Source of the DNA: a virus
Virus record (IMG/VR): IMGVR_UViG_3300030118_006784
Location: 1 to 28,645 of that record
Reading direction: 5' to 3' (one strand)
Length of the DNA: 28,645 bases
This document shows positions 1,447-25,400 of the stretch, piece by piece. Each line of letters starts with the position of its first letter. Position 1 is the first letter of the stretch. A program made the position numbers and the translations under genes. The notes under the pieces were generated by a model. It ran no database searches. It was not told the origin of the DNA and saw only the letters and a list, made by a program, of their open reading frames with translations.

Positions 1447-2830
1447 AAGGCATCCCAAAGGGATTAGTTTTGGTAAAGTCAATGATTGCATCTGCTTTAA
1501 CCTCAATATTATCATTATCTGCAAATGGATCATTTATATCATCTTTGTTGACAAGTCTGACAGCAAATGATGCTCCAGATTCAGAACCAACAATATTTTC
1601 ACCAACTAGGAATGCTCCATCAACTATAGACACCTCAAGAGTATTGTTAGAAGCATTATATTCTTTTACTCTTGCTGTGGTTCCAGAACTTGATCCTGTT
1701 ACAATTTCATTGAAAATATAACTTCCTGTAGCAACGCTTGCTGGAGGTGCAGCAAAGGTCAAAGTTGGAGTGCTTGTATAACCACTACCAGGATTAACAA
1801 TAAATGCAGAGGTAACAATACCTGCTGAGTTAATACGTCCTACACCAGTGGCAGTTATACCTCCAGATGGAGGAGCAGAGAATGTAATTGTTGGATTTTC
1901 AATATAACCAGAACCAGCACCAGTAATTGTGATTGCAGATACACTTGTATTTGTTGCTAATCCAGTGGTTGCTGTTGCCCCATCACCTCCACCACCACTT
2001 ATTACAATGGTAGGTGCAACTGTATAACCAGAACCAACATTAGAAAGTAAGATTGCTCTTACAGTTCCTCCCTTAGTTCCATCACAACCAACAAAGTCAT
2101 TAGTTATAGATGCTATACCCACAGCAGTGACACCTCCTGGAGGAGCAGATGAGAATCCCACTGTTGGTGCTGATGCATATCCAGCACCCATGTTTGTTAT
2201 TACAGGAATGGTAATTCCACCAGTCACTGTGCTTGCTGTTCCAGTAGCTGTTATTGCCTGACCAATCAGAGTCAAGGTCTGTATATACCCAATCTGTTCA
2301 ATCTCATCATCAATGGTTTCTACACCTGTATCAATAACCTCATCATCGTATCTGTAGAGTTGAAGACTGAGGGTATAGACATAGTTCTTTTGTAGTTGAT
2401 AAAATGGTTGCTCATGTTCAACATAGTTAATCTCAAACAACCTATCACCAAGTGGGAAATAAACCAAATCACCTTCTTTTGGTCTAGATGCTAACTCAAT
2501 GTTAGCAATATTTTTAATCAGTGGTGTGATATATCTTTCGTATCTGTCTCTAGATATGATTAATTTAAGATCATCTTGTTCCTGAATACCAAACTTTGAT
2601 AGTAAAGTTCCTTGACCACCATACCCATCATAACTATCAAGATATGCCTCAAGAGGATAAGCGTCAGTAAATTCAGATTGAATAACTTCTTTAATTACAG
2701 TATTTTTTGTTACATATCTTCTGGGGATGTAAAAAATCTCAATACCATACATCTGCAATTGTTCATTAACAAGACTTTGTATGAGATTTTGCTCTTGCTT
2801 AGAGTTGTTTAGAAAGAATGGATTGAGCAT
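1445..2830 (-). CDS. 14: gp14, head-completion/neck protein with a large repeat insertion
   Basis: gp14 joins gp13 to form the neck that seals the filled head and receives the tail. Residues 1-190 match the family: MLNPFFLNNSKQEQNLIQSL, then QMYGIEIFYIPRRYV (26-40) and RPKEGDLVYFPLGDRLFEIN (116-135). The extreme C-terminus (NDPFADNDNIEVKADAIIDF, ending NPFGMP) is also typical. Between them, at about residues 195-430, lies a Gly/Thr/Ala-rich block with four G(A/S)GY repeats and a G-SGT/SGA module. This makes the protein 461 aa against 256 aa in T4. The start lies 4 nt after the gp13 TGA stop, with TAGGTTG about 8 nt upstream, so gp13 and gp14 are coupled. The inserted block probably projects from the neck as a beta-rich decoration, which is inference. 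Confidence 0.93.
   Translation of the reverse strand: MLNPFFLNNSKQEQNLIQSLVNEQLQMYGIEIFYIPRRYVTKNTVIKEVIQSEFTDAYPLEAYLDSYDGYGGQGTLLSKFGIQEQDDLKLIISRDRYERYITPLIKNIANIELASRPKEGDLVYFPLGDRLFEINYVEHEQPFYQLQKNYVYTLSLQLYRYDDEVIDTGVETIDDEIEQIGYIQTLTLIGQAITATGTASTVTGGITIPVITNMGAGYASAPTVGFSSAPPGGVTAVGIASITNDFVGCDGTKGGTVRAILLSNVGSGYTVAPTIVISGGGGDGATATTGLATNTSVSAITITGAGSGYIENPTITFSAPPSGGITATGVGRINSAGIVTSAFIVNPGSGYTSTPTLTFAAPPASVATGSYIFNEIVTGSSSGTTARVKEYNASNNTLEVSIVDGAFLVGENIVGSESGASFAVRLVNKDDINDPFADNDNIEVKADAIIDFTKTNPFGMP
1745..2233 (-). repeat. GSGY repeat array (4 units) inside gp14
   Basis: This encodes gp14 residues of about 200-362. Four units start at GAGY (about 215), GSGY (266), GSGY (305) and GSGY (348), spaced 39-51 residues. 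Each has the form G-(S/A)-G-Y-x4-P-T-(L/I/V)-x-(F/I), followed by APP or a Gly run and a variable 15-25 residue strand region. At DNA level the plus-strand word tataaccagaacca (complement encodes GSGY) occurs exactly at 1903-1916 and 2023-2036, and again in gp7 at 15457-15470. The regular Gly-Tyr-Pro spacing suggests a repeated beta-sheet or beta-helix rung. Confidence 0.8.
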
Positions 2831-2834
2831 GATA

Positions 2835-3698
2835 TCAACCTATCATATCAAATGGAGGCAACTCATATCTACTTAGCATCTCTACTTTTATTTCATCAAG
2901 TTCTCTTTGTGCATCATCATAAAGTTGTCTTCCATTAAACTCAACTCCACCAGGAAGTTTTACACCAGTAAATTTAATTAAGTTTTGACCCCACTGTCTT
3001 TTAATTAAAGCAGTCAAATATCTCTTGAGGAATGGATCATTATAGACTCTTGTATAATCATCAGGATTAAGTGCTCTGTAACACTCAAGGATAATAAATT
3101 CCCCTTCTTTAATATTATCATAATCAACATCAAGATACATTCTATCTTGTCTAATATTAAATCTTATTCTCTTATGCGTATTCAGAAGGAAGTCCATGGT
3201 CTCCAAGTAACTCATAGACATTGAATATGAGAGTAAGTCTGTGCTTCCAAAGTAATAAATATCATTCAAAAATAGTTGATATTTAAAACTAAACATATTG
3301 CTACTACTTATAGACTGAGCATCATCATATTTAAAAATCTTTTCAATACCTATGACCTGTGGTGGTATTTGAATATAATTACTATTTTCGTAATATGAGA
3401 ATGTTGTTGCAGATCCAACTATGCTGGTAGTAACATTAGTAGTAGAAATACCTGTTTGAGTTGTTTCGCTTTTTGCACCTGGTGGTCTAGCTTTACCTCT
3501 CTCTATATCAGCAGCAGTCATTTGGTACTTGAGAAATGCTTTCTCAACACCATCATAATGTCTCTCTTGAAAATATTGAATAGCATCATCCATTAAGTCC
3601 TGGACTTGCTCATCAGCAACATTTATCTCCAAGACAGGAGCACCCAACTGTCTTAAACAATAATCTATAAGTTCTTGTCTTGAAGAAGGTTGTGCCAT
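2835..3698 (-). CDS. 13: gp13, head-completion/neck protein
   Basis: gp13 binds the portal vertex after packaging and forms the neck with gp14. The N-terminus is diagnostic for marine T4-like phages: SSRQELIDYCLRQLGAPVLE, then NVADEQVQDLMDDAIQYFQE (about residues 26-45). The C-terminal half has the conserved DPFLKRYLTALIKRQWGQNL and a closing helix with QLYDDAQRELDEI. At 287 aa it is near the T4 length (309 aa), so unlike its neighbours it carries no large insertion. A short, low-conservation TTQTGISTTNVTT stretch near residue 80-92 is probably a surface loop. AAAAGG lies about 12 nt before the ATG. A late box sits 21 nt upstream, and gp14 follows 4 nt after the stop. Confidence 0.95.
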   Translation of the reverse strand: MAQPSSRQELIDYCLRQLGAPVLEINVADEQVQDLMDDAIQYFQERHYDGVEKAFLKYQMTAADIERGKARPPGAKSETTQTGISTTNVTTSIVGSATTFSYYENSNYIQIPPQVIGIEKIFKYDDAQSISSSNMFSFKYQLFLNDIYYFGSTDLLSYSMSMSYLETMDFLLNTHKRIRFNIRQDRMYLDVDYDNIKEGEFIILECYRALNPDDYTRVYNDPFLKRYLTALIKRQWGQNLIKFTGVKLPGGVEFNGRQLYDDAQRELDEIKVEMLSRYELPPFDMIG

Positions 3699-3719
3699 TA
3701 TACACTATATCCTTTTCTA

Positions 3720-4109: not shown

Positions 4110-4323
4110 TAGTTAGTGCTTTTAACATTGATTTGATTTCATCTAGATCATCTTTTAAATTATCAACTTTTGTCTCAAGGGAGTCAACTCTTTCTTTATC
4201 AGATAAAAGTTTCTCCCTATTTTTTATGTATGCTTCAAATTCATTTTTATTTGTATTAATGATGGCATTATTTTTTTCATCTCTGGACAAATTATCATTG
4301 CCCTCAACAGGTATCAATCTCAT
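4102..4323 (-). CDS. Small coiled-coil protein, unidentified (73 aa)
   Basis: The N-terminus MRLIPVEGNDNLSRDEKNNA, followed by IINTNKNEFEAYIKNRE, resembles small conserved proteins encoded near structural genes in marine T4-like phages, but I cannot name it. From about residue 38 the sequence is highly charged with a heptad pattern (RVDSLETKVDNLKDDLDEIK, then SMLKALTNG), which predicts a C-terminal parallel coiled coil and oligomerisation. The ATG overlaps the TGA of the DUF4815 gene as ATGA (4323-4320), and the next gene overlaps its end, so it is translated as part of a tightly coupled unit. Its position corresponds to T4 wac, whose product is also a coiled coil, but no fibritin sequence is visible. 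Confidence 0.75.
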   Translation of the reverse strand: MRLIPVEGNDNLSRDEKNNAIINTNKNEFEAYIKNREKLLSDKERVDSLETKVDNLKDDLDEIKSMLKALTNG

Positions 4324-7300
4324 GCTAATGCAATTGCTCTAAGATTTCTAAATTGTGGCACACATGCCTGGTTAGATGATGTCCCAATAAGTTTAAGTCT
4401 AAATGACTTAAATGGAGGGAGGTTATCCATGGTAAATTTGTATTCTGTAAAGTCATTAATTGCAGGTGTTTGAGTGAATTTATCACTTTTCTCCCTAGCA
4501 ATATCAGGAGTGCCATCTGCCAAATTAATATTGATGACATTTCCAAATGTATCTAAATTATCTGTTCCAGGGAATGGTCTAAACTTAGTCTCTTTTGCAG
4601 GTACATCTTGATCAAGTGCAAAGAACATTCTAACATCACTAGATGTTGCAATGTAAGAGTCAATGAACACTTTCAATGATGTTGCAGGATTTTCAAGAAC
4701 AACATTTTTTGTTACATATATCATACTATTTGGATCATTAGGAATTCCAGTGACTCTAGGATCAATTACAAAGTTAGTGATTGGACCATCTACTCTATTA
4801 GAAACAAATACAACAGAGGCATGGTTCAAATCAATCATTGGAGAAATTCTCTTATCATAGGTAATCATGTCAAGATTTAGAGTAAATGATTTGTTACCTG
4901 GTAAAGCAGTCAATGTTTCAGTTTCATTAATGTCAGATGCAACCATTCTTTGTGTTTCAAAGTAATTCTTCTTATTAAACTGAACATCTTGGAATCCCTG
5001 ATCAATGAATGCAACTTCATTTCCAGACACTGATTGCTCAGAAATAGATCTAGCAGATGCAAGAATATAAGATCCCTCAACTGTTGTTGAGGTTATATCA
5101 GGAATAATCAACGAATATGGAATGTTATAAGTGCCTTTTGCAACACCTATGTTAGTATTTCCATCAGTTAGATAATTAGTCTTTGGAATGAATGTTCCAC
5201 CAGCACCAGTTCTATTTGTTCCATTAGCATTCATGTCAACTTTAATGTGGTAAGAGTCAATACTAATTGGATCATCCTTAGTTACATTTTGAAGATTATG
5301 TTGTGTGTTAATTCTTCTCAATGATACACTATTAAACTCATACTTTGTTACAAGTTCATTAGTCTTATGACTAGCAGCAACACCTTCTGCTGCTCTTCCA
5401 ATTCCAGTTAGTGTTCCTGATGTTCCTGTTCCAGAGGTAATTCCTTCATATTTAATAATCTCTTCACCTATTTGTACATAACCTGGATTGGTATTTGAAA
5501 CACCAACATTTTCAAATGTATCAAATCCATTTGTGTTTGCAATTGAAATATTTGCAACACTTGATCTTGTTATGTCAGTAAGTAGACTTGATGGCAAGTT
5601 ACTACCTTTAACACCTTTAATCCTAACTCTATTTGTAGTTGAATACATTCCATGATTTCTTTGTCTCACTTTAAGATGAAGTCCATCTGAAATCACAGAT
5701 GTGCTTGTAGGAACAACAGAACCACCTACACCAGCGTTGACAGAAAGTCTTGTGCCAGAAGTTGAATCATACTCAAGATAATCATTTGCATTAGTGCTAA
5801 AATCACCTTGAACATTATGCAGAACAAGATTATTTTGTGCTGTAATAATACCAACAGTCAGTCTCATTCCAGAACCAATTCCCTTACCAAAGGGTAAAGG
5901 ACTGACAACATCTCCAAGTGTAAATTGAGACCCACCATTATTAATTGTTGCACCAATAGCAACACCATCAAGAGTTGTGATATCAGCAGTGGCATTAACA
6001 CCACGACCAGTAATTGCTGTCAATGCAATACCAGTATGAGTAAAGGAACCAACTGATGGAGTAAATCCAATACCAGGATTTGTAACACTTAATTGACCTG
6101 TGGCAATACCAGCAAACTTCTTAAGGAAACCAAATGCTCCAGTATTTCTCTGTATAACTTTGTTACCAACAATTAATGGATTAGCAGCACCACCTTGATT
6201 TACAGTTGTTCCAATACCAACACTAATTTTTCTTGACTCAGCAGATATTGCTCCAGGAGCAATAGCTTCATTCTTATCATCAAGATCTGGATTATAGAAT
6301 TGAATATTGCCAGAACCAACAAAATCACATCTGGTAAGGACAAATTTCATGTCCTCATATTGACTTGGAGTCCAAACAGTGGAGTTTTGAGATTTAAATA
6401 ATGATCCTAATACAGGTTGTTCTGTAACTAATACTCTACCTGATTCTGAAGCAAGTGTTGTAACATCTGCTTCTCCCAATCTTGAGATCCAGAGATTATA
6501 TGTTGTTACATTTGCAAGAACAACTAAAGCATATTCTCCACCTGGTCTAAGATAAACTGGTGACTCAAATCTGAACTCTGTTGCTACTGTTCCATCTTCA
6601 GAAACATTAACATCAAAAGAATCAAGAGTAACCTCTGAATAACCAAGAATAGTTGAGTTAGGTGTTCCTAATGTAGTTTCTCTTATTTGGATTGTTACAG
6701 GTTGTGTGTCATCTTTAGTTTGGAAGAAGAGATCTACCTTGCTGGCATATATACCAGTCTTAGCATCTATCTTGAAAGTTTGTGCAAGAGGGTCACCACC
6801 CTGTGGTGGGTTTGGTGGTGGTGGAGGTGGGGGTGTAGGTCTTAGAGTTGTGCTGTTAATGATATCAAGATTAACATCAGACTCAACTGTTTGTGATTCA
6901 GGTATTACATCCACTGTAGAAACTCTTGCATTTCTAAGTGACAGAGTTACTTCTTCTGTAGTATCAATATCACCTTGTGAGTAGAAAATTTCCTCCGCAT
7001 CTGTTGTAGTTGTCCCTTCAATTGAGCTGTTGATATTACTACTAGTCAGTTTAAATACATTCCTTCCAGTATTGAAGGTTTGCATTGTCAAATCACCCTC
7101 TCCTGGAACTTCAAAACAACCTTGAAGTGTCCCAACTCTATCTGTAATAAGATTCACATTTGCAACAGTTGCTTCTGCACCACTTGTTTGACCCTGAAGA
7201 GTCATAGTGTTAACAACATGTCCATTAAATGTTGGATTTTCTTCAGATGCAAGAGTTACAGTATCTACATTAAGAATTGTACTTTGGGCAGAATAAACTG

Positions 7301-10300
7301 ATGGAACAGCATTTGATCTTAAATATGGATTACTATCATAGAAATCAGTGGGATTGTTGTAAGGTCCATATTTATGATTTGCACTGGCAACTCTAAATCT
7401 AATTGATGCTGAACTATTACCTGGAATTGAACCAACAACTTCTTCACCTACCTGGAACACACCAGAGTTCATAGTAATTTGAATTAATTTAGGTGTGCAT
7501 CTTGCAGTAACGTTTACATTATCAAAGAATGCAAATACCTGAGTATTTGGTTTCATTCTAGTTGCAGTGAATTCAATATTTCTCTCCCTCATAAAGTTTG
7601 AGATAGTTCTATTTGTAATTCTAGTGCCAAATGACTCTGCATCTGTAAGCACTTCAGTCACAGTTTGTTGAACACCTGTCCTATTCTGTTCAATATTAAT
7701 TGTACCATCAAGTGTGGTAGAATTAATTGTGCTCAAACTTGCATTGTTTCCACCAAGACCTAATGAATTTGTTGATTGACCTGTTCTTTGTGAGAATGCT
7801 GCAAAAGATTCAGTTTGGGTGGTTCCTGTAAGGTCAAGATTAATACCAGTGGTCTCCCAAGAGTTCCACAGTGTAGGTGCTACACCAGTTCTAAGACCAT
7901 CAGCACCATCTTGAACATCTGCTTGAAGTGCAGCTGCAACTGACTCAAAATTGCCCTCTATAATTACATCATTTGTTTCAGGTGGTAAAGTGCTAACCCA
8001 AACATCAGTGGTTGGATTCAAGGCAATACTTCCTTTATAAAAATCAATTAAGAAGGGAGTTACATTTTCAACTCTAGTGGCGTATGGTTGAGATATTTCA
8101 GCAATTTCATTATAAAGTAAACTGACTACATTGCCTGTTCTTCTAACATTTTGTCCTGACAGTGCTGTAAATCTTGCATCTGCATCTGCTTGAGTAACAC
8201 TTCCAATTCCTGGAATTACAGAACTACCAATTTGAAGATTTATGGCAGTTGTATAGTGTGCAGGTCTTAAAACTTTTGCAACTGGATCAATACTATTTCT
8301 AATTCCAATAGTAACATCTTGTGGAGTATAAGAGGAGAAGTTATCAATAAAAATACCAGATTTGAATCTATTCAGACCATTTGCATCTGAAACAAATGCA
8401 TTCAAAGTATTTTGCTCAAGCATATTGAGAGATGTATAATACTCAAGGTTTTTTATTCTTCTCTCAAGTTTTGCGATATCATTCATCTGATATCTCTTAT
8501 GTTCTACAAACTTAATTTTTGAGTCTCTTACATTATAAAGATATGGGGGACTAAAAATATTAGAAATGTTAAGGGCGCCAGGAAGCACATCAGGTAATTC
8601 TGGTCTATCAGATGGAGCACCAAGTGTTACTTGTATATCACCATTTTTAGTTAGATAAATTCTATCTGCTCTTCCAAGATAATAATCATATGCTAATATA
8701 GAAGTCTCATCACTTGCAAATATATGTGTTGTACTATGATTTCCATTATCAAAAACTCTGCCATCAAATTCAAATGGTGAATTTCCACCATCTGTAACGT
8801 TATAATCAGAAACTCTAGGTCTTAAATCAATTAAGTCAGTGTTTCTTATCCCATCAATAGTTTGAATTTCATTAGAGTAATTACAATTGATATAAGAATT
8901 TGCAGTTGTTATATCACCAGTATCACTTGAATCATAATCAAGATAACCATAATAAATTAAAAGTTTTTTATTAGGTATGTGAGCACCTCTTACTCTCTGT
9001 ATCCTTGATATATCATAAATGTCACTTCTCTGACCATTGTCAAATTCAAATGAGGATGTAATATTTGGTGAACCAGATTGAATACTACTTACATTTGCCT
9101 GAACACCAGTATTTGTAAAGGTGACAATTTCACCATCTTGAAATTCTTGAGTATTGATGTAAGCAAAAGAAATTGATGATGATGATAACTGTTCAAGATA
9201 AATTGCTTTAGCACTACTCAAGTTTCCTACAAATATATCTCCAAGTTGAAGATCATTTGTATTTGCACTTGGACCTGTCATATTGGTGACAGTAAGTGAG
9301 GGACTTGATGGGTTATTAACATCAACTGATTCATAAACTGCATGAACAGTATAAACATCAGGTTTATTAAGTGATATTGTTTCGTCTTGCACCCTAGTTC
9401 CAAATGGATAATTACCAAACTCAAGACCATCATTTAATGTGGTTCCAGCAAATCCCACTGCATCAATTCCTGATACTGGATCAGATGATTTATCAATAAT
9501 TAACTTTTGAACAAGATTTTTTCTCTTAATTTTTGAACTGATTTTATTTTGAAGAACAGTTCCAATTAACACTGCTGGACCAGATCCAGATAATCCAGTA
9601 ATTGTGACTTCTGTTCTTGCAGTATTAAAACTAAATTTATCACTTGTTAGTATTTGAGTGGTGCCATCATCATTTTGAAGAGAATATCTTTCTTCATCAA
9701 AAGATTGCCATGTCTGACTATCAATATCATCAACACCAATAGCACCTGTTTCACCTGCAGCACTAATAGTTACATTTTTCTTAACTCTAATAACTGCATT
9801 AGCATTATTTAAATTAACTGACTTTACATTTACATTTGGCAATGCACTGTATAAAGTGTTTTTACCTGCTTCATTGCCACTATTGGAGGAATTTGCAAGT
9901 TTTGATGAAACAATTTTTAAAGAATTTACATTAAAGTTTGCATTAGGAAGAGCACCATTAGCAACTCCAGAAACTGTAGTAACAGCTGCTATTGTAAAAT
10001 CTGTTGAGGCAACAGAAACAACCCTTGCAAAAGATACATCACCTAATCCTGGTCTCTCATATTGTACAATATTATTTGTTGTTACTACACCTACAAAAGT
10101 TCTCCCTCCAATAGAAGGACTAGTTACAGTAGATATTCCAGCGCTTTCTGCTGTGATTAAAGCGTTATCAAATGTAAGGATGGGACTTTGTATGACATCT
10201 GCAGTAAATGTGTTTGCAGTTCCAACAACTCCATGAACTGATTTAACATCAGCCATTGAGAACTGATTTGTTTTAGTAATAAATCTTGTAACATCACTAT

Positions 10301-11885
10301 CACTATTAATAACAACAGGTTCTCCTACTATAAACTGACCCCTAACATTGACTAATGTATGAGCGATTCCTGTGGTAGCAATATCAACAAATCCAGTTGC
10401 ACCACTTTGTTGTCCTTCAATAAATGATGATTTTGCAAGTGTGGTATCAACATTTAAACTTATTTCATTTTTAAATTCAATATCAAATAATGATAAATCC
10501 CACTGATTAATATTTGCATTAGTTGCATTATAAGATCCTGACTCTAATGAAAAATCATAAACTCTTGCTTTTCCAATTTCTTGTCCAGTTGCAGTAAATT
10601 TGTTTTCATCAAGTCTTCTAGATCTGAGAGAAAGAGTATTAGTAGTGTTAAAACCAATTGGAGCATTACCAGTTACATTATTTACTTCTAATGTTGGGGC
10701 AAAATCAAAGGAAACACCAGTGTTTGCAATTGTTCGTGCTGTTCTTGGTTTTGGAATATCTATAAACTGTGGTGATTTAATCTCAGTCTCATATCCTCTT
10801 ACATATGCCTTACCAGGTGAAACCTGAACAACCATCAAATCATCTGAAGGAACATTTCCACCTTGAGTTAGTTGATCTGATCTATAAACACCTCTGTTTC
10901 CTTCAAGATTGTTTAAACTTTCTTTAATCTTAGTCTGCAATTCTTTGATATAGTAATGACCAGATTCTTCAAATGTTCTTTTTGCTAACTCATTTCCAAG
11001 AACATTATATCTTGTGCTGTTATTAAGAGCATTTTTAAGAGAACCATTGATAATCTCAGCAATTTGTACAAATCCCTGAGAGTCAAAATTGTCAATTGAT
11101 TTTTTAGCTAGTGTGGCAGTAATTTCAAATCTATCAGCACCAGGTGCTGTAAAATTATTGAACCCACTTGCATTATCATACAATGTATTATCATCATCTG
11201 CTGTAATAATTTTTTCTTCAATTTGAAAACCAATTCTGTAACTTGAATCTGTAGAATACTGATCAAGAATTAGAATTTGATCATCAACAGTTACAAAATT
11301 ACCTCTTAAGTAAAAAATACCAGCACTTAATATAAATGCAGTTCCTGTTCTTGCTGCCTGTGAAACAATAGTATTAGCAAATCCCTCACCTGCAGCAATA
11401 AATGAACTTCCAAATGCAATTGCTGAATCTGATGTTAATATTTCATCATCAAAAAATACTTCTGATGAATTGCCATCATCACTTGAATCCTCATAATTCA
11501 AATATAATGTATAATTGCCAAAATCAGATTGTGCATTAGTGATGAAGGTTACAACTTTTGCTGTAACTCCTGATGTTCTACCTGTTATTTTTTGACCAAT
11601 TAATGAGTCAAGATATAGATTTACAGGCACTCCTAAAAATTCAGGTTGAATCTGAATGCAGGCAAATCTAGATTTATATGATGAATTGCCAGGTATTACA
11701 ACACTACCCTCTTTAAAGAGGTTGTCTCCCATCGCCTCAATCTGCCCCTGCAGAATTGATTGAATATTATTTAACTCTCTTGCCTGAATTGGAAAAGAAG
11801 GTTTGAATAAAACTTTATTGTAATTTTTAGTTGCATCAAAATCATCAAAATAGGGAGCAACATTGAGATTAGTTTCCTGTGGCAT
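4320..11885 (-). CDS. Giant DUF4815-family virion structural protein (2521 aa)
   Basis: The N-terminus (MPQETNLNVAPYFDDFDATK, then NKVLFKPSFPIQARELNNIQ) is characteristic of the DUF4815 family, a common large structural protein of marine T4-like phages. Further landmarks fit it: VQVSPGKAYVRGYETEIKSP (about residue 360), a helical stretch MNDIAKLERRIKNLEYYTSL (about 1130-1150) followed by RFKSGIFIDNF, then EISQPYATRVENVTPF (about 1260), then MKPNTQVFAFFDNVNV (about 1440). A proline run near residues 1680-1692 acts as a hinge before GGDPLAQTFKID and a beta domain. Later parts carry GSGY-, SGA-, RG/GT- and HG-type modules shared with gp7, gp14 and gp15. The gene takes the place of T4 genes 9-12, so a peripheral baseplate or fibre-anchor role is likely but inferred. 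The start is 6 nt after the gp8 stop with only a weak AAAGAA site. Confidence 0.87.
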   Translation of the reverse strand: MPQETNLNVAPYFDDFDATKNYNKVLFKPSFPIQARELNNIQSILQGQIEAMGDNLFKEGSVVIPGNSSYKSRFACIQIQPEFLGVPVNLYLDSLIGQKITGRTSGVTAKVVTFITNAQSDFGNYTLYLNYEDSSDDGNSSEVFFDDEILTSDSAIAFGSSFIAAGEGFANTIVSQAARTGTAFILSAGIFYLRGNFVTVDDQILILDQYSTDSSYRIGFQIEEKIITADDDNTLYDNASGFNNFTAPGADRFEITATLAKKSIDNFDSQGFVQIAEIINGSLKNALNNSTRYNVLGNELAKRTFEESGHYYIKELQTKIKESLNNLEGNRGVYRSDQLTQGGNVPSDDLMVVQVSPGKAYVRGYETEIKSPQFIDIPKPRTARTIANTGVSFDFAPTLEVNNVTGNAPIGFNTTNTLSLRSRRLDENKFTATGQEIGKARVYDFSLESGSYNATNANINQWDLSLFDIEFKNEISLNVDTTLAKSSFIEGQQSGATGFVDIATTGIAHTLVNVRGQFIVGEPVVINSDSDVTRFITKTNQFSMADVKSVHGVVGTANTFTADVIQSPILTFDNALITAESAGISTVTSPSIGGRTFVGVVTTNNIVQYERPGLGDVSFARVVSVASTDFTIAAVTTVSGVANGALPNANFNVNSLKIVSSKLANSSNSGNEAGKNTLYSALPNVNVKSVNLNNANAVIRVKKNVTISAAGETGAIGVDDIDSQTWQSFDEERYSLQNDDGTTQILTSDKFSFNTARTEVTITGLSGSGPAVLIGTVLQNKISSKIKRKNLVQKLIIDKSSDPVSGIDAVGFAGTTLNDGLEFGNYPFGTRVQDETISLNKPDVYTVHAVYESVDVNNPSSPSLTVTNMTGPSANTNDLQLGDIFVGNLSSAKAIYLEQLSSSSISFAYINTQEFQDGEIVTFTNTGVQANVSSIQSGSPNITSSFEFDNGQRSDIYDISRIQRVRGAHIPNKKLLIYYGYLDYDSSDTGDITTANSYINCNYSNEIQTIDGIRNTDLIDLRPRVSDYNVTDGGNSPFEFDGRVFDNGNHSTTHIFASDETSILAYDYYLGRADRIYLTKNGDIQVTLGAPSDRPELPDVLPGALNISNIFSPPYLYNVRDSKIKFVEHKRYQMNDIAKLERRIKNLEYYTSLNMLEQNTLNAFVSDANGLNRFKSGIFIDNFSSYTPQDVTIGIRNSIDPVAKVLRPAHYTTAINLQIGSSVIPGIGSVTQADADARFTALSGQNVRRTGNVVSLLYNEIAEISQPYATRVENVTPFLIDFYKGSIALNPTTDVWVSTLPPETNDVIIEGNFESVAAALQADVQDGADGLRTGVAPTLWNSWETTGINLDLTGTTQTESFAAFSQRTGQSTNSLGLGGNNASLSTINSTTLDGTINIEQNRTGVQQTVTEVLTDAESFGTRITNRTISNFMRERNIEFTATRMKPNTQVFAFFDNVNVTARCTPKLIQITMNSGVFQVGEEVVGSIPGNSSASIRFRVASANHKYGPYNNPTDFYDSNPYLRSNAVPSVYSAQSTILNVDTVTLASEENPTFNGHVVNTMTLQGQTSGAEATVANVNLITDRVGTLQGCFEVPGEGDLTMQTFNTGRNVFKLTSSNINSSIEGTTTTDAEEIFYSQGDIDTTEEVTLSLRNARVSTVDVIPESQTVESDVNLDIINSTTLRPTPPPPPPPNPPQGGDPLAQTFKIDAKTGIYASKVDLFFQTKDDTQPVTIQIRETTLGTPNSTILGYSEVTLDSFDVNVSEDGTVATEFRFESPVYLRPGGEYALVVLANVTTYNLWISRLGEADVTTLASESGRVLVTEQPVLGSLFKSQNSTVWTPSQYEDMKFVLTRCDFVGSGNIQFYNPDLDDKNEAIAPGAISAESRKISVGIGTTVNQGGAANPLIVGNKVIQRNTGAFGFLKKFAGIATGQLSVTNPGIGFTPSVGSFTHTGIALTAITGRGVNATADITTLDGVAIGATINNGGSQFTLGDVVSPLPFGKGIGSGMRLTVGIITAQNNLVLHNVQGDFSTNANDYLEYDSTSGTRLSVNAGVGGSVVPTSTSVISDGLHLKVRQRNHGMYSTTNRVRIKGVKGSNLPSSLLTDITRSSVANISIANTNGFDTFENVGVSNTNPGYVQIGEEIIKYEGITSGTGTSGTLTGIGRAAEGVAASHKTNELVTKYEFNSVSLRRINTQHNLQNVTKDDPISIDSYHIKVDMNANGTNRTGAGGTFIPKTNYLTDGNTNIGVAKGTYNIPYSLIIPDITSTTVEGSYILASARSISEQSVSGNEVAFIDQGFQDVQFNKKNYFETQRMVASDINETETLTALPGNKSFTLNLDMITYDKRISPMIDLNHASVVFVSNRVDGPITNFVIDPRVTGIPNDPNSMIYVTKNVVLENPATSLKVFIDSYIATSSDVRMFFALDQDVPAKETKFRPFPGTDNLDTFGNVININLADGTPDIAREKSDKFTQTPAINDFTEYKFTMDNLPPFKSFRLKLIGTSSNQACVPQFRNLRAIALA
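5335..5490 (-). other. 'IGEE...GR...G...H' module in the DUF4815 protein
   Basis: The segment reads GYVQIGEEIIKYEGI, then a Gly/Thr-rich turn, then LTGIGRAAEGVAASHKTNEL. It matches the module inserted in gp15 and found three times in gp7: a strand with IG-x-E-E, a second strand, a GR/RG turn, a spaced A-x-S-H. It marks the shared parts among otherwise unrelated tail proteins. Confidence 0.6.
5850..6095 (-). repeat. Divergent GSGY-type repeats in the DUF4815 protein
   Basis: This encodes residues of about 1930-2012. Two units are visible: NPGIGFTPSVGSF, then LTAITGRGVNATADITTLDG, and INNGGSQFTLGDVVSP, then GIGSGMRLTVG. The pattern of G-x-G-(Y/F) followed by a Gly-rich alternating strand region corresponds to the arrays in gp14, gp8 and gp7, although here the second unit has SQF in place of SGY. 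Confidence 0.55.
6805..6850 (-). repeat. Polyproline hinge in the DUF4815 protein
   Basis: The minus strand encodes TPPPPPPPNPPQGGDP. Proline codons in a row (plus strand ggtggtggtggaggtgggggt) form a stiff linker between the DUF4815 core and a downstream beta domain. Such linkers typically separate a virion-bound part from a projecting part; that role here is inference. Confidence 0.75.
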
Positions 11886-11891
11886 AATTCT

Positions 11892-13475: not shown

Positions 13476-13480
13476 GGGGA

Positions 13481-16400
13481 TTAAGTGTAGTTTTTAAATC
13501 TAAGAGGATTGGTTCTTTGAACCAAAGCAGAAGTAGAAATACCAATCACTCCATTTTTATTAAAGGCATCAAAAGTCTTGGTATTTGTTCTTTCTGCAAA
13601 GTCAATAATACCCCAACTATAGTTGCCCATAAATGGTCTAATAGTGTGAGCAATTCCTGCACCAAATGTATCAACATTACATTTAATTCTTGTAACTGCT
13701 GTTGTAATGCCAGAACTGTTCTCAGTGAAAACTGTTACCATCTCTGTTGATGCTGATCCAACTTGATATACACAATCTAAATTAGTGGTTGCTACACCTA
13801 CAGCAGATGCAAATGTGCTTCCAATTGATAAGAATGTATCCTTAACAACAACTATATCACCAGATTGAATACCACTAACTGTGATGGCAGTGCCAACAAC
13901 AGATGCATCTCTCATAAATGAATCTGTTGGAATAAACAGATCAAAGAACAATTGTTTTTGTGCTCCTACATTAGTACTACCAACTCCTACAATGACACCA
14001 TTATCACCACTATATGAAAGGACATTAATAACCTCTTTATTAATCTTAGGTGGTTCAATGAGCACCAGTGGTTGTGTGGCATAATCAGTACCAATACCAG
14101 TGATAGTGACACTAGTAACAACTCCTGCTGTTACAGAGGCAGTAGCAGTTGCCTGATGAGTTGTTATTCCACTTGGTGCAGCAATAGTGACTGTAGGTGT
14201 AAAATCATAACCTGCACCACCATCAGTCAATGTTATTGAAGAAATAGTGCCACCAGTTGAGACAGTTGCAGTCGCAGTTGCTTGATTAGAAGCATTTTGA
14301 GAAATAAGTGTGACAGAATTTTGGAATGATCTGTTTGAAGACTCATTTGCAGTATTAAACAATGGTCTTACATTGTCAACATATGCTTCAGTTGAGGCAA
14401 CAGAAACTGAACTTGTCAAATATGCTGCAGGGAAAATTGATGGTTCATATTTTTCTCTATCCTTACCAACAAATTGACCATTAATTCTTCTATCAATTGT
14501 TTGTTTGCACCATGTCAAAGGTCTGGTCACAGTTCTATTGTTTGCAAGTCCAGGTCCAGCATATGCGTTTGTTTTAACAGCATCAATTGTAGTTATTCCT
14601 GTTATGACTCTTTTATTTTGATCAAATATAATACTCTGACCACCATCAATATCAGCATTTAATTCAACAGTATCACCAATTTTAACTGTCTGCAATATGT
14701 CTGTAAATGTTACATCACTATCTCCACCTCCCTTATAAAATAGTATTCTTGATGTATCACCATCTGGAACACCTGAATTAGGACCTTCAGGTGCCTCATT
14801 AAATGTAATTTGACTTCCACCCTCAAATGTGTAAGATTCTCCAGGAACTTGAAGAATATCATTGATAAAAACAAGGAGTGTTTGATCAACTTCAATATTA
14901 GAATCACGAGATGCTCTAATTGAAATTGGTTGTCCCTGTAATGTTAATGGGAATACTTTTTTCACTCCATCAAATAAATTATCAATTCTGTCAAAGACTT
15001 GGAATTCGCCAGGAGAATAACCATTAAAACTATCACTGTAAGTATCTTGAATTGAAATTTGGAACTCACTAAATGTTATTGAGGGATCAGTGGGAATGCC
15101 CAATGCACCTCCAACAGGCACTGTGAGAATATCTCCTCTCTTAAATGCGTATCCAAAATCATTTATTTCAAAACCTATTACACTAGATCCCTGACCAACA
15201 ATAATGTCTATAGTAGCCTCTGTGCCAACACCTGAAGAGGATGATGAATATACAAGAGGAATGTTACTATAGTTAAGTGGTTTATCAATTACAACAACAG
15301 GTGCATTTGTATTAGTATATCCAGAACCTGGATTAGTGATATTAACACTAGATACATGTCCATCAGTAATGACTGCAGTTCCAACATGCTCTAAAATAGG
15401 AACTACTCCAAAGTAAGTTTGAACACCTACAGTGTAGGATGTAACAACACCAGTTCTATAACCAGAACCACTGTTACCTATGCTTACTGAGGTGATAGTT
15501 CCAGCAGATGATACTACAGCAGTTCCACCAGCACCAATTAATGGTTGATAACCAGCACCTTCAACTGAACCAACTGATACTATCATTCCTCCAATTGGGA
15601 GACCACCAGCATTTTGATCATAACCAGTTACTGATCCAAGACCAGCAATAAATGTTACAGTGGATACACCAGAACTTTCAGAGTTTTGATATGAACCAAT
15701 TTCTAGTGATTGTACACCTTGTGGTGTTTGGAAAATATTATTAACAAGTAGAATTGTATTAGATGAGATACCACTTACATTTTGACCATCTGATTTTAAT
15801 GTAAATTCACTTGCAATTCCTGTGAATTGATGTGATATATCATCAAATACAAAGTTTTTACTATAAGTTTCATTTGTTGAAGATTCAACTCCTCTCTTTG
15901 TAAATACTCTACCACTGAATGTAGAGTTTGTAGAGATGCCAGAGAAATCTCTTTCATCAGGAGGATTAGTAGAAGTACCAATTGGTATATTTCCAAAAGG
16001 AGCACTTACAAAGTTCAATACATTATTTGTAACTGTATAATTACCAACAAATTTTTCAATAGTTGCACCAACACTATGAATACCAATTTCAGTTCCAAGA
16101 ATAGGTCTTTGAACAAATAAAGTTGTGCCTGTTCCAGTCACTGATGTTACTCTCATAAATTCATCATCAATTTTTATGATATCATTAGAACTAATTGATG
16201 TGATTCCACTTGTGCCAAACCTTGTTTGGAATACAACGTCTTCTGATAAAGTAGCTGCAATACCAGTATTAGAAATTGGTGCCTGAATCATATTATCAAC
16301 TGATACAAGCATTTTAGTTGTTTGCTTAGTAGCAGTGATAAAGTGTGAATTTCCAACTCCAACACTATCAAGTTCAATAAAAGTAGGATTGATTGCTTGT

Positions 16401-19400
16401 GCATCAGTTGGACTAGTTGCAAAACCAATTTGAGCATCATTTACTTTAATTACAAACAAATCAGTTGGTAATACTGATGTTGAACCAACACTTCCACCAA
16501 AATTAGTTGTAACAATACCAATTCTTTGATCAGTTCCAGTTACTGTATATTTGATTGCTTCTCCACTTTGGAAGAAATGATTTGGAAGAGAAATTTGATT
16601 TGATGTTGTATTAACAATAGATGTTGATGAACCATCAAACTGTCTTTCAAATATAGGATCACCCCTATGAGTTAGATTGAAACTAGTTCTTATTTCATTT
16701 TTAGTTCCAAAATAATTACCAGTTTGTGCTCTTAATAAACCATCATTTAAATCAATCTGATTATCAGTAATATTGTCTGGAGAAATTTCTCTTAAATCAA
16801 CAAAGAATGATCTAACTTCAACAGCAATACCTGGATTAGGTGTATATGTAACCTGAACTAAATTACCAGTAGTTGCAATACCAACTGTACCAAGTGATAA
16901 GTCAGTTTCAACTATACCAAATGGAGATATTCCCTGTGTAGGAATTGTTGTTGAGTTTACAACTCCAATTTCAAACATTTCATGATGATTATTTGAAGTA
17001 TCTTCAACTGTTATTATTTGATAAGATGCACTATAATTTTCACTTGCGTCAATAGTGTCATAACTTGACACAACATGAGCAGTAGGAGATCCTGAGGAAG
17101 CAATTGATGTATATGCACTACCAATTCTGGCAGTATTCATTGTAGTGATACCTGGAATAGTGTTTCCTCTTGCAGTATTTACAATCTGACTGTATGAAGT
17201 TGCTGCTATACCAGTATTAGGATGGAACTTAAGAAGAACATCAGATCCGCTAATTTCAGCACTATATGTTCCAATGCCACTATCTCCATATAGGATATTA
17301 TCATCCTCATCAATATTATTATATTCTACAAAACTAACATCAGTTCCATTATGGACTATATTTAATTCAGCAAAATGATATTCATCACCAGTCACTAACA
17401 AGTTCATTACCTTAAGTGATCTGTAACTTGTTCCTACAGAAACAATATTGGTAGTTGTGCCAGTTGACACATTAACTTCTTGACTTTCATAATCAATAAT
17501 ATTACCAAATGAAGTTACAGCAGCACCAGTCTTTGTTGGTTCAAAGGCAAATGAGAATGAAGATACAAAATAATTGTTAATAGTGAATTTAGTTGGATGG
17601 AATTGAAAATCAAAATCATTATCAGTGATTGCAAGATCAAAGAATCCTAAGTCTGGGAATGTGTGAATGATTCCATAACTTGTCAAGTAACCAAAGTCAT
17701 CATCTACTATGGCAGTGGATACTTGGAATTGTCTCTCATCTGTAAATGTGCTATCCTGTACATAGAATAATGATTTTACAAATTTAACTCCAGGATCAAA
17801 TGTAGATATTGAAGCAAACGCCTCTGCCCTTTCATTACTATTGAATAATCCACTTACATCATCTACACTTAGAACTCTGTTACCTGTTGATTCAAAGAAG
17901 TCAGTTAAAACAACATTTTCAAAGAAAACAGTGTCAGATAATGTTTCACCATTTACATCAAATAAATTTTCTCTTGCAAGATCAAAATCATAATAACAAT
18001 TTAAATCACCCTCACCAATACAATCAACAATAAATGACATTTCAGTATCATTTACAACTGGTGTTAAGTTGCTTTCAGATTCACTTTCAATCTGCAAATC
18101 AGAGAACTTTTTAAATCCTGCTGTATGGTTTAATGAACCAACAGTATTATCCCATTGATCAAATGGGATTGTTGATTTAAGTGAGTATGAAAATCTTTGA
18201 TAATAATTATTATCTGGCATTCTTTGCAGACTATCATTTAATACACCAGTATCTCTTGACCAACCATAATTAATAGTAGTGCCAGCACCAGTTCTAATGT
18301 CTGCAATAAAGTCAAACTTTTTAATTACAACTCCTCTAGTTTTTGAAGAGTCACCAATAACTAAATCATTTATATTAAGATCATCAGTAGTTTTTATTTT
18401 AACAATATCTGTTTCATTATTATAATCATCAACAATACCATTTTTTGAATTCCATCTAACAGTTTCATCCTGTAGAAACTTATTTTTTCCTAAGATAGGT
18501 TTGAATACTGGTAAATGAGATTCTGGTATTACTCTGGCAGAATTTAATGAGAGAACGTTTCCAGGAATTTCAGTGGAACTTAAATCATCTTCTAGTGAAT
18601 ACTCAACATAAGCACCTGCACCACCAGGGTTAGTTTGCACTCCTACAATTTCAAATAATTTGTGCTTATATTGTTCAGAGTTATAACCTCTACCTGTGCT
18701 TCCAATTCCAATGTTGACTCCCTCAACATATAACTTATTTCCAATAGAGAATGGATATTCACTATTACTATTAAATTGGTTAGTCAATCCCAATCTAATA
18801 GTTTTACCATTTACAGTAATACTTCCAATATCAAAACCATTTGAGTTTCTAGTTGCAATAATTCTAGGTGTGGTTGGATAAAAACCTCTTGAGTTTGTTA
18901 TAATATTAACCTCTGTATCACCTAATTCAAATTCTAAATCGCAATCAACAATATCACCAGTAAATCCATCCCTAACAATAAGATTGGGTGGCACTAAATA
19001 ATCTTTACCTGAAGTTGTAATACCAATTCTTTCAAATGATGCTAGTGGATTTACTTCAACAATTTCAGGAAGATTAGCAGTGGGTTTAAGAGTTTTGTCA
19101 GTAGGATAATTCCAACCTATATTATTTGATTTAAACTTTTGATTTTGAATCTTACCAATAGATTGAGATTCTGCAAAAAGAATAGCACCTGTTCCAATAC
19201 CAGTCTTAATTGATGATATACCAGGTAGTGTTTCATAACCATAATTGTTATCAACTAAATCAACATTTTTAATTGAACCAAGTGCATTTATTGATGTGGT
19301 TGTATATTCTGCATCAGCAGTTGTTCTACTATAAGAAGTTATAAGAGACGTATTATCAAGATCAAAATTAAAAGTTGTTAGACCCACACCAGTGATGGTA

Positions 19401-22400
19401 TAATTTCCATCTAAAATTGATGAAGACTTAAATATAGAATTATTAGAAATTACATCAGAATCTATAACAACTTTTTTCTCATCAAATATAAATGATTCAT
19501 TTACAATATTAAATTTGTAAAATAGTGCAGGTGGAGTTTCATTAATATTAATTGTTAATTGACCATCTACTCCAACAACACCATCTGTTTTTACATTAAA
19601 TTCATTCTCACCATTTGAAGTTAAATATTGATTGACAAACAATGTGTCAGTGTAGATTGCCATTTCAAAAGCAGGATATTTGATTGAATTTGAAATGAAT
19701 GACAATGAGCTATCTGATAAATCAAATTTTAGATTCGTTGATGCAGTTACACTTGGATTAATTTTAGATATAGTTCCAATACCAGCAGTTGTAATGTTTA
19801 CAAAATTTGGTTTGATTGAATTTAGTTCAAATTTATTTTCAACAAATTTAATTGTTGTTGGAGAATCACTAATAACATAATACATCTTTTCATTAACAAG
19901 TCCACCAGATGGTGAATTAGATGTATGAATAATTTTATCACCTGTCTTAAAAGTGTTTGTTGCAACACCAATGGTATTGTCAATTGTATTGACTGCAGAG
20001 GCAGCGAATGTTTGTGGATCAAATACAATTCTTCTATTGAAGTTATTGTATTTTACAATAATAGTTGTTTCATTTTTTGGATTTAATGAAAATAGAACTT
20101 TGTCATCCTTTCTTAAACCATGAGTGCTGGCAGTAGATACAGTTACATTAGTCCTTTCTGCTTTTGCTGATGCAACATTATCAAAATTAGTTACAAAACT
20201 ATGATAATTACTGGTTCCAACACCAGTAAAATAAAAAAGTCCAATGGTTGAGTCAAGTATTCCACGATAACCTGATGTTGTTAATCCAATCCTAGTAGAA
20301 GAAAGACCAATAAAGGTGTTATCAAAAGGAGCAACAAATAGAGTTGAAAAATTAGTTAATGATGTTTTAGCAATTCCACTTCCTCCATTCCAAACTTCAA
20401 TAGAATCACCAGTGTTTGTTTTATATGTTACAGTATCATTAACCTTGAATGTATGATTAGGGATATAAATTTGTTGTTCAGGAACAAAAATGTTAGTTGC
20501 ACCTGCTCCTGGATTTGAGAACACAATTGTCTTACCAGCACCAACAGTAGTTAAACTTCCAACACCAACTGCTTCATTTGGATCAAAGTAATGTTCAGTA
20601 TTTGTTTTTAAAATTCTAGTTGTTTTTAACGTACCTACATTAATTGAAAAACTTCTAGGATCTTGAAATAGTTTTACATTCCCTGTGTGAGCAGCTCCAG
20701 TAGTGCCATTCTGTGCTCTTAGAACTCTAACTCTATTGTTAAGCGCATCGCTGTTAAGAACCTTTACTTCCTCAGACTCAATTTTAATAATATCATTTGG
20801 TCTCATAAATGGGTACTGGAAGGCACCACCAACACTAAAGAATGTAACAATACCAGTGTTTGCAACTGTATCTACATCATCAAGAAGAACATATGACCCA
20901 GTATTAATTCCAATGTTATAATATTTGTCTAAACCAGGGTAGAAGTCAGTTAAACCAGATATTTTAAATCTTGTATTATTTGAAAGATTATGAGGGGAAG
21001 TCATAAATCCAACAAATTTATTAGAGGCACCTGCATTTGTAAATTCAATATTTGTAAAAGTGGTGGTTGCAATGTCTACAAAATCTACCCTCTTACCACC
21101 AATTTTATTAATTATTCCTCTTGCAGTTTTACCTGTGGTGTCACCCTTAAACACCACTCTATCATTAATTTTATAATTTGATCCACCAGTAAATATTCCA
21201 ACACTATCTACACTTCCTTTTGAAGTCGCTGTTACCTCAACAATTTGCTCTTTAACATTATTAGAATTAAATATGTAATCATAACCACCAAATTTTGAAT
21301 TAATTTTATATGGTGTGGTAATTCTTCTCCAATTATTTTGCACTAAATCATAATCAACATGATTTGAAACTTTTTTAAAATTGAAATCATTCTGCTTATG
21401 TTGGAATGAATTACCAATCAAATAAGGGAATTGTGGTCTCTTGAAGTTTTTAAAAGGACCTGTGCCATCTGGTGATTGTGAAATAGTTGAGAAATAAACA
21501 AATTTTCCATTAGGATAATCTGGTGTTACACAGAATCTACCATTAGATTCATTAAGATCTCCTGTGCCAATGTAATCAAAGTCCTCAACAAAGAATCCTA
21601 ATGGATATAAGTTAAGTGGAGGTCTGTTAGGTTTAGTAACTGATACATATCCAGATTTCATTCTTCTTACACCACCACCATTAGGTTTATCATAACCAAA
21701 TGGTCCATAAATTGGAGCACCATCATATGCCCAACCAATAATTGGTGAATGATATTTTGAATCAGTTTCTAAACCAAATTCAATAGTCAAATCAGGGTGA
21801 TTATATTGAGGTTCAGCATTTGATTTTTTACCATAAACAATAGATCTTAGATTTCTAGGTGCATATAAATGCGCTAATTGTGTTGTATTATCAATTGATC
21901 CAGAGGTAATAATACAATCATCATCTGTAAGTTTATTAAACTTTTGCTCAAACTTATTAACAACCCATTGATTAATATTGGCATCAATAGATCCATCAGT
22001 GCCTGAAGGTACAATAGTTATCAATGAATCATTTTTATAATCAATTCCACCTGACACCACTATTACTGAAGTAATAGAACCATTTATGATAATGGGTGTT
22101 AATTTGCAATATTTTCCATCAGAAATAATTAATTCTGGTGGAGAATTAAATCCACTACCACCTTGGTTTACAACAACTTCCTTGATTGATCCGTTTACAA
22201 CAATTGGTGTAAGTTGTGCCAGTTCACCACTTTCTAAAGAAACAACAGGTTTCCTGTCAAAATTTAAAATTTCAGATGAACCATAACCAACACCTTCACT
22301 TTGAACATCAGCACTTGTTATACTACCTCTAATAATTGGTTGCAAAGTGCAATCAATGTTTTGACCAAATGATGTATTAACACCAACTGATCCACTAACT

Positions 22401-25400
22401 GTTACAGTAATTGGTTTATAATTAAAACTACCAGAACCTAATTTAATGATATCTAAAACAATATTGTTGTCAATATAATATCTTTTTTCTAAAGAACCAG
22501 TTCCTACTTCATGTAGATTAAAATTATCATCATCAATCTTTCTAACAAAATAATCAGTTTCAGAAGAAATACCTGTTATTGCAGTTCCATTTGGTGTGTA
22601 TTGAACAATATCATTTGTTTCATAACCATGATTAGTAATAGTAAATGTGTTAAGTGATGTACTGATGCCTGTTGAAAGAATTGTTCTTTTTTGATTTTTA
22701 TATCCTGAACCAGGGTCAGATATAATCACATTACTGACAACTTTTTTTCTCTCTACAGTGGAGAAAGTTTGTTGACCATTACCAAGACCTGTTAAACTGA
22801 CAGTATTAATACCAATACTTGCATCATCAAACGTGGAGAATAATTTTATTCTTGTGCCATCAACAACCTTGGCAAAATACACTTGATTAGTGCCAAGACC
22901 AACAACTGGATTTTTTGTAGTATTATAAGTTACTTGCTCAATGTCTCTTAAATTGTGGAAGGTTAAAAATCCAACAATATTATTTGTTAGATCCACACCA
23001 CCATCAATATTATTAAATGAAACACCTGCATTAAAAGAAATAGAATGATCAATTTCAATTAGATTGACTTCTGCTTTTGCAGGCACATCAGGATTTCCAC
23101 CTTCAATAGTAACAACTGGAGTTTCAAGATAATCAAAACCCTTGTCAATTATTCTTAATTCTGAAACAGATCCAGAAACACTTACAGAACCTGTAGCACC
23201 TGTTCCAGCACTATCAGTAACACTTACAACAGGGGGATTAATTACATCATAGTTTTTACCAGGACTGGTAATCTCAAATGATTTTATTCCACCATAAAAA
23301 ATTACATCAGATGATTTATAATTATCTATCTCAACACCATTAATTAGTACACCTATTTTTCCAGGCTTTGTTGTAAAAACACCTGCTTCTTGTTCTGGTT
23401 CATTAATCTCTCTAAAAATTTTTTGACCAGTAATTGGTTTTTCAAAGAAGGGATAATATGTAAATTTATTATTTGTTACAGTGCCTGTGGGTGTGATGAA
23501 TTTATTATTAGCAAGATCTGCTTTACTTTTTGCTAATTTGACATTAAAAGCATCCTCTCTCTTAATAAAATATATCCCTTCATCCACGTCACTGAATCCA
23601 TCAGTTGTGGTATCAATAAAGGTTTGTCCACCAGTTGTAGATGCTGTGCTTACTCTGCTGTAGTTATAATAAACTGCATCACCAGTGTATAATCCATGGT
23701 CTGATGCAGATGAAATTTTTATAATATCAAAATTTGCTGAACCACTAAAGGTAAACACTTTGTCATCACATCTTATTTCATCTTGATAATTTGGAACACT
23801 ATTAGATGCTAACAGATATGATCCATTTTTTTTGTATGAATTCAATACATTAGAATTAATAGTATCAATAGGAAGTTCATTAGAATTTCCTTTAAGTAAT
23901 TGATTTTCAAGAGAGAAATTATTACTTAAAGTATTAGATGGGATGGCATTAACCATCTTTACATTTAATTGTGTATCTGAATCAATTGAAGATACTTCAC
24001 CTGAATAAATTGTATTTAAAAGTAAATCAGTTAATTCAATTTTATATCCAACAATTAAATTATGTTTTTCAAAAAAACTAATTGTGTATATATTATTTCC
24101 AGGATTCGTTAGAGTTAGATTTTTTACATCTAACTTAGACTTTACATTATAAAACCAATCAGTTTTAAAAGAATTATCTTCTACTCCAATTGTTTTTAAA
24201 CTAATTCTATCACCTTTTTTTAATCCAAAGTTATCATTAGTATATTCAATTGATTGTAGAGTTGATAAAATTCTAACTCTAATTTGATTATCACTTCCAA
24301 TACCAATATTTGCAAATGAATAATCATTATTTCTTACATCAATGCCTTTTGTAAAATTAGTGGTAGTGGTGGTTAGACCAATAAATTGTGTTAAATTTTT
24401 ATCAGTATAATTAATTAATTGTTCATCACCATTATCATCAATCATGGATAATGATCCAGATGATGCAAAATCAACTGTTGAATCAACATCAATAATTGTT
24501 GAACCAACACTTACATTATTAATGAGTAATGTCTTAGAGTTAGGTTCAAACTTTCCATATATTGTGCCATCAACATCAATATCTCGTTGATAACCAGTGT
24601 CAATGGAAATTTGATAAAAGTCACCATCTACGTTTAATTTTTCAACCTTTGTTACTGTTCCTCTTGCATTTGTAGAATTTTGAAAAATTGTTCTGTTATT
24701 TAATTTTAGTGGATCACCAATGTATTTTTCTACAATATAGTCTTGACTAACTACGTAATTTGCGTCTGATGGTCTAATCAAAGACTCATAAGGTTTCAGT
24801 ATATCTACATCAACACCATAAATTGATTTGAACAGAATTTTAAATGATTCATCTGTTCCCTTTGATTTGTAAAAACTATCAGCACCTGTAATAAAATTTT
24901 TTTTATTTAAATTAGATGCAAGAGTTCTATCTTCAAAACCAGGTGCAACTTGTGTCTTTAACTTTGTAAAAAATTCTTGTAAAAATAAAACACTTAAATT
25001 TTTAACAGTTGCACCATTTTCATGCTCTTCAACTGTTGTGGTAGTAAATGTTTGTTTATCAGGTACAAGTGTATTAATATATTCTGTAACACCACTGAAA
25101 CCCCTTATACACCCTTCTAAAGTAGTGTCAGTCTTAGTGCTGTATTTAATAATCTCATCATCAATTTGAATCAAACCATTGGTTTTAGGAAATTGATGTG
25201 TGAAATTAGTATCAGCAGATAATAAAATAGATGTTGACTCTGTATCAATGTCAGCACCTAACTTTGCCTCTGTTTTTAAATTAGCAAGTTCCTCAACTCT
25301 CACATATTGATCAAGATTTTCAATCAGGTCTAAAACACCACCCTGTGTCTCTTGAGAGACATAATACTCCTCTAAGAAATTTAAAAGTAAGGGAAAATCA

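Follow-up and report, generated by a model that had tools for sequence, protein, structure and literature searches.

A glycine-rich repeat, here called the GSGY unit, was found to be shared by four otherwise unrelated virion proteins encoded in a 28,645 bp window that comprises the entire virus record IMGVR_UViG_3300030118_006784 (IMG/VR). The window is a fragment of a marine T4-like cyanophage (Kyanoviridae), an assignment based on its closest named relatives, which belong to that family (for example Prochlorococcus phage P-TIM68, with 63% identity in gp14). The units occupy fixed positions across related phages, and their spread over the genes is ancient. Pairs of units may form inserted domains that probably serve as outward docking or adhesion knobs, and we hold this explanation as a whole with moderate confidence. 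The four genes that carry the units are as follows.

1445-2830, minus strand: gp14 neck protein (head closure Hc2), 461 residues (PF11649, E 7.7e-35; phrog_460, E 4.7e-132)
4320-11885, minus strand: DUF4815/VrlC-like virion protein, 2521 residues (PF16075, E 5.5e-55; phrog_358)
11892-13448, minus strand: gp8 baseplate wedge protein, 518 residues (PF09215, E 9.4e-14; phrog_438)
13481-25465, minus strand: gp7 baseplate wedge protein, 3994 residues, with several repeated modules (phrog_2885, E 0)

The family was defined by a 35-column profile that was started from 22 seed units and iterated over the gene clusters of twelve phages, with a match of at least 10 bits required for membership. The consensus of the iterated profile is NGSITSVTITNGGSGYTVPPTITISGPGGGGATAT. 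At this threshold 138 matches were obtained in the twelve phages vs. none in the reversed proteins of the same set, and the repeat is therefore not a product of chance. This bears out the sequence-only reading, which had proposed one repeat family across these proteins and had also located the repeat-bearing region (1745-23285) correctly. In the window the threshold was passed by units in gp14 (four), gp7 (nine) and gp8 (one), and by neither of the two DUF4815 units when scored alone. The literal motif by which the unit had been described, GxGY-x3-4-P-x-[VL]-x-[IF], matched only three places in the window (two in gp14, one in gp7) and was dropped as a definition because it fits too few units. 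A relaxed form gave seven matches, and neither form matched gp8 or the DUF4815 protein. None of the curated models searched (Pfam and NCBIfam, E 0.01) covers the repeat, including the Ig, Big and fn3 models of Pfam. The motif is short and rich in Gly, Ser and Thr, and some profile matches span only 10–15 residues, which would suit a low-complexity beta sequence of many convergent origins. Such convergence is extremely unlikely given the blank result for reversed proteins, the same columns across phages, and the retrieval by the profiles of a two-unit insert from PDB, that of Dpo31 (E 0.001–0.003; see below). The units in the window are listed here.

1715-2290, minus strand: gp14 four-unit array, residues 181-372; proposed to form two six-stranded domains; outside the T4 gp14 core alignment
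2123-2221, minus strand: gp14 unit 1, residues 204-236; 31 bits; column kept in 12 of 12 phages
1967-2071, minus strand: gp14 unit 2, residues 254-288; 39 bits; 12 of 12 phages
1847-1948, minus strand: gp14 unit 3, residues 295-328; 38 bits; 11 of 12 phages
1724-1822, minus strand: gp14 unit 4, residues 337-369; 34 bits; column kept in 10 of 12 phages
12597-12689, minus strand: gp8 unit, residues 254-284; 13 bits; column kept in 12 of 12 phages; between stretches aligned to T4 gp8
23189-23293, minus strand: gp7 unit, residues 725-759; 22.5 bits; 11 of 12 phages
23090-23176, minus strand: gp7 unit, residues 764-792; 21 bits
22694-22738, minus strand: gp7 unit, residues 910-924; 9.3 bits; 8 of 12 phages
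22277-22327, minus strand: gp7 weak unit, residues 1047-1063; 5.1 bits; 6 of 12 phages
22115-22195, minus strand: gp7 unit, residues 1091-1117; 25 bits; 10 of 12 phages
21986-22084, minus strand: gp7 unit, residues 1128-1160; 18 bits; 12 of 12 phages
21131-21217, minus strand: gp7 unit, residues 1417-1445; polar turn instead of the proline; 16.6 bits; 11 of 12 phages
18974-19027, minus strand: gp7 weak unit, residues 2147-2164; 6.4 bits; 9 of 12 phages
15449-15502, minus strand: gp7 unit, residues 3322-3339; 10.5 bits
15284-15364, minus strand: gp7 unit, residues 3368-3394; 27 bits
14162-14254, minus strand: gp7 unit, residues 3738-3768; 30 bits
14048-14125, minus strand: gp7 unit, residues 3781-3806; 17 bits
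6060-6089, minus strand: DUF4815 protein degenerate unit 1, residues 1933-1942; 1.0 bit; recognized at the homologous column in 4 of 12 phages
5904-5948, minus strand: DUF4815 protein degenerate unit 2, residues 1980-1994; 0.9 bits; homologous column up to 14.8 bits in Bellamy

All four gp14 units recognized from the sequence were recovered, at 31–39 bits each, and the at least four clusters noticed in gp7 correspond to 12 units, some of them weak, in about seven clusters (residues 725–3806). The gp8 unit had been called clear; it scores only 13 bits, but its column is conserved in all twelve phages. Another gp8 match (residues 364–388, 7.9 bits), which had no counterpart in the other phages, is probably due to chance. 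The two divergent DUF4815 units reach only about 1 bit each alone and owe their acceptance solely to the relatives, in which the matching columns score as high as 14.8 bits.

Positions were compared in the aligned proteins of the twelve phages, and most gp7 units were found to share a column in 6–12 phages. An alignment can itself draw similar motifs into shared columns; against this, unit spacing was almost constant for gp14 in most of 54 metagenomic relatives and, counted from the C-terminus, nearly identical for gp7 in close relatives. The nearest neighbor was the unit at the same position in another phage for 115 of 146 units (8.7 expected) and a unit of the same gene for 132 (65.7 expected). 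Units of different genes showed 18.1% identity within one genome vs. 17.9% across genomes, and a paralogue in the same genome was closer than the best orthologue for only nine of the 146. A tree of 132 units required 12 gene changes vs. 48.1 with shuffled labels (its resolution was poor, with 7 of 129 inner branches well supported). This phylogeny, which had been suggested as a way to detect exchange, showed clustering by gene and did not support exchange. Recent exchange at DNA level was also sought in the window and not found, the best between-gene pair of 75-nucleotide unit cores being 60% identical. Because of these fixed positions, nearest-neighbor statistics, tree and low between-gene DNA identity, the distribution of the repeat over the genes is judged to be old in these phages, with the copies inherited in place since then; ancient duplication and domain insertion would have placed them.

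Units that still move among the structural genes of this lineage, by recombination or gene conversion, would explain why the nearest unit of ten gp7 units is a gp14 unit and why gp14 units 2 and 3 share 79% over 34 nucleotides, and the gain or loss of a cassette in Pseudomonas tail-tube proteins (see below) points in the same direction. We consider such ongoing movement very improbable, since positions are constant in the twelve phages and close relatives, units of other genes are no closer in the same genome than in other genomes, paralogues so rarely surpass the best orthologue, and between-gene cores are at most 60% identical. The suggestion of the sequence-only reading that the repeat moves between structural genes is not supported for this lineage; in other phages the repeat acts like a portable cassette. 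The units largely group by host protein, the exceptions being a minority in gp7 and gp14 that have each other as nearest neighbors.

In the neck (gp14), wedge (gp8, gp7) and peripheral (DUF4815) proteins, the domains would be insertions that either separate conserved core segments or follow them. A profile alignment of T4 gp14 reached only residues 1–167 of cyanophage gp14, leaving the array outside, and T4 gp8 aligned to residues 3–191 and 485–518 of cyanophage gp8, with the unit in the expanded region between them. The gp14 and gp8 units therefore lie outside the T4-aligned core segments, which fits domains inserted in a host protein, a feature of the gp18 domain I class. Residues 1–180 of the window gp14 match both Hc2 family models (PF11649 and phrog_460), and the array distinguishes this protein from T4 gp14, which has none. 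None of T4 gp6, gp7, gp8, gp9, gp10, gp12, Wac, gp13, gp14, and gp15 scored above 0.3 bits.

The structure of the gp14 array (residues 181–372) was predicted alone with AlphaFold2 from 55 aligned sequences. This prediction, another check that had been suggested, gave a confident beta-rich model with a mean predicted local distance difference test score (pLDDT) of 88 and a predicted template modeling score (pTM) of 0.80. Twelve strands, about three per unit, are predicted with high confidence over the four units. A unit of about 40 residues would consist of three strands, with the G-x-G-Y turn joining the first two and a Gly-rich loop leading to the third, and two consecutive units would pack into one six-stranded barrel or immunoglobulin-like (Ig-like) domain, similar to T4 gp18 domain I or to the D3* domain of Dpo31. 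Two gp14 units span 85–90 residues, which agrees with the six strands per about 90 residues of the gp18 domain I class.

The top VIA match of the array was T4 gp18 residues 99–188, with a root mean square deviation of 3.0 Å over 75 aligned residues, 20% identity and Z 5.9 (under the tool's safe-match level of 8), and the next non-gp18 entry had Z 3.0. The matched range of the model begins eight residues before the unit-1 motif, and that of gp18 about eight before the sequence GSNY. This structural match may be taken as a lead, not as proof. Independently of the structural comparison, T4 gp18 ranked top with the unit-pair profile at 10.8 bits vs. 4.7 for the best background sequence. The first unit of gp18 scored 11.6–13.8 bits in five of seven orthologues (T4, 44RR, AM101, Lw1, and a Klebsiella phage), and the two others scored below zero with the unit profile. 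In gp18, domain I forms a barrel of six strands set into domain II; it protrudes outwards without inter-subunit contacts and binds the retracted fibers, and the mutations G106S, S175F, and A178V inhibit retraction (PMC3004832). These three residues fit the T4 gp18 gene sequence only when the initiator Met is left uncounted; G106 is then the first Gly of GSNY, which corresponds to a fully conserved column of both the unit and the pair alignment. By our own mapping, G106S would thus fall on the first glycine of the motif. Domain I (PDB 3FO8 and 3FOA) resembles the proposed unit pair in its about 90 residues, six strands, insertion in another domain and GSNY in the first half; it differs in its location in the sheath, in a degenerate second unit and in the presence of a helix in the domain.

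When PDB was searched by sequence, the marine tailspike Dpo31 was the best match with either profile, at E 0.001 for single units and E 0.003 for unit pairs. Its two units, at residues 444–460 and 489–505, are both within D3* (residues 434–536), which its authors describe as an Ig-like insertion into the beta-helix (PMC13317679). The likeness of D3* (PDB 28LX and 8CK1) lies in two GSGY units within one inserted Ig-like domain; in contrast to gp14, it is a single domain on a podovirus tailspike with no tandem array, and it is likened to gp14 by sequence. Two units of three strands each are consistent with both gp18 domain I and D3*; from these two domains, and from the two-unit cassettes of Pseudomonas tail-tube proteins (see below), we propose that the units pair. 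Ig-like add-on domains of tailed-phage sheath proteins are already known and are thought to have been gained during evolution (PMC9230969). The GSGY domain resembles these beta-sandwich add-ons on virion structural proteins but would differ in being built of two sequence-similar halves, and it has no match to the Pfam Ig, Big or fn3 models.

Besides the low Z score, several results weigh against this interpretation. Foldseek gave no significant match for the gp14 array in PDB, and Dpo31 (28lx, 8ck1) was absent from both VIA fold-match lists, an absence that does not exclude it. In the gp18 orthologues domain I has a degenerate second unit, profile-profile alignment linked this domain only weakly to the pair profile (probability 5%, 20 columns), and the PDB sequence search with pair alignment A4 did not return gp18. 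In addition, the gp7 groupings include single units and one triple, and the cyanophage sheaths do not contain the GSGY motif.

A two-unit consensus matched many cellular genomes of Bacteroidota, Verrucomicrobiota, Planctomycetota, Pseudomonas, and archaea (at least 80 matches); the phage collection gave no match to the same artificial sequence at E 0.001. Among the matches listed, 42 of 79 cellular proteins contained exactly two units, a count that speaks for the pairing but is biased by the two-unit probe, and above two units a preference for even numbers was unclear (20 even, 15 odd). The carrier proteins include multicopper oxidase-like, GH64, phage sheath, and tail-tube families. Tail-tube genes (PF16460) were compared from 20 Pseudomonas genomes: some of the (prophage) tail-tube proteins contained a two-unit insert of about 90 residues, and others had about 10 residues at the same loop. 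The flanks of the closest pair with and without insert (L275 and L264) were 88% identical, and the two-unit cassette has been gained or lost at this loop. In another pair (L280 and L277) the inserts were 74% identical vs. 45% for the flanks, which suggests exchange, with the reservation that the strong repeat consensus inflates the identity of the inserts. In one further Pseudomonas sequence (L279, genome G063) the tail-tube frame switches to a different sequence just past the second GSGY unit, perhaps by recombination at the repeat or through an assembly fault.

As to function, the domains of gp14, gp8, gp7, and the DUF4815 protein would face outwards and dock or adhere to tail fibers, baseplate parts or surface glycans. 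Docking or adhesion is the likeliest role in our analysis, because T4 gp18 domain I docks the retracted fibers and G106S, in the motif, blocks retraction; glycan adhesion and bracing are close rivals, and it counts against docking that the role leans on gp18, one distant and uncertain homologue. Weak carbohydrate binders that keep the virion at the cyanobacterial surface are a possible, rather doubtful alternative. D3* of Dpo31 is distantly similar to Ig-like sugar-binding domains (Z 2.8–2.9; PMC13317679) and the Ig-like sheath domains have been proposed to bind surface carbohydrates (PMC9230969), whereas the D3* similarity is very weak, binding residues are not recognizable, and a domain at the neck of a free virion would be remote from the host surface. 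A similarly tentative standing is given to passive spacers or stabilizers that enlarge the proteins and brace neighboring subunits with no specific ligand. The virion proteins of these cyanophages are far larger than their T4 counterparts, and the C-terminal region of T4 gp14 (residues 178–256), where the cyanophage array lies, touches gp15 in the virion (PMC12270204); provided that gp18 domain I is truly related, its lack of contacts between subunits (PMC3004832) speaks against bracing.

The GSGY repeat was not found described for phages in one open-access literature collection, and earlier notice elsewhere is possible. What appears to be new is a sequence family that would join cyanophage neck and wedge proteins with Dpo31 D3* and, less firmly, with T4 gp18 domain I; the presence/absence polymorphism of the two-unit cassette is new as well. 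Parts of the very large and largely unexplained virion proteins of abundant marine viruses consist of this repeat, which now has a testable identity linked to solved structures and to classical T4 genetics. A widespread domain with no Pfam or NCBIfam match here is also indicated, and the Pseudomonas tail-tube proteins with and without the cassette offer a clear system for studying gain and loss. A wider proposal, speculative and on balance unlikely, is that the GSGY pair is an uncatalogued portable beta-domain of phages, bacteria and archaea, inserted at exposed loops as docking knobs for fibers and baseplates. Domain I of gp18, with G106S, would then be its first genetically tested member, and cyanophages would have shifted their docking sites away from the sheath, to neck and wedge.

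Other modules are shared by these virion proteins. A second module, HG[LFY]..GD.[VI].[YF], was found in six copies in the window gp7 (residues 586–613, 941–972, 1778–1807, 1839–1862, 2958–2988, and a weak copy at 837–863), one of which follows the GSGY unit at residue 919. Nearly all of its matches at 10 bits or more (62 of 64) fall in gp7 of the twelve phages, and the reversed proteins gave none. A third module, approximately [IV].I..E.[IM].V...L.V.RG..GT...H, is present in gp15 (273–311), gp7 (98–125, 1559–1594, and 3096–3136) and the DUF4815 protein (2136–2155), and a fourth, G[EQ].[VIL].G..SG..A.V, in gp14 (375–392 and 407–420) and the DUF4815 protein (93–115 and 1563–1578). The GSGY unit thus belongs to a set of several modules that recur among these virion proteins.

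The genes on the minus strand of the window encode gp53, gp25, gp6, gp7, gp8, the DUF4815/VrlC protein, a small protein, gp13, gp14, gp15, and the small terminase subunit; the labels gp53, gp25, and gp13 are presumed from the gene order in annotated relatives. At its C-terminus, gp6 (25472-27607) carries a long Ser/Thr run (TTSSSSSSSSSSSSSSGY). Outside the four families, a 1478-residue fiber-like protein of phage S-SCSM1 (L093:35707-40143) contained two GSGY units (residues 1261–1338; 25 and 29 bits), seen in none of the other eleven phages. In Nostoc foliaceum, a phage-like tail sheath protein (L250:3861-5972) was found to contain six tandem GSGY units (residues 264–485) before its C-terminal sheath domains.

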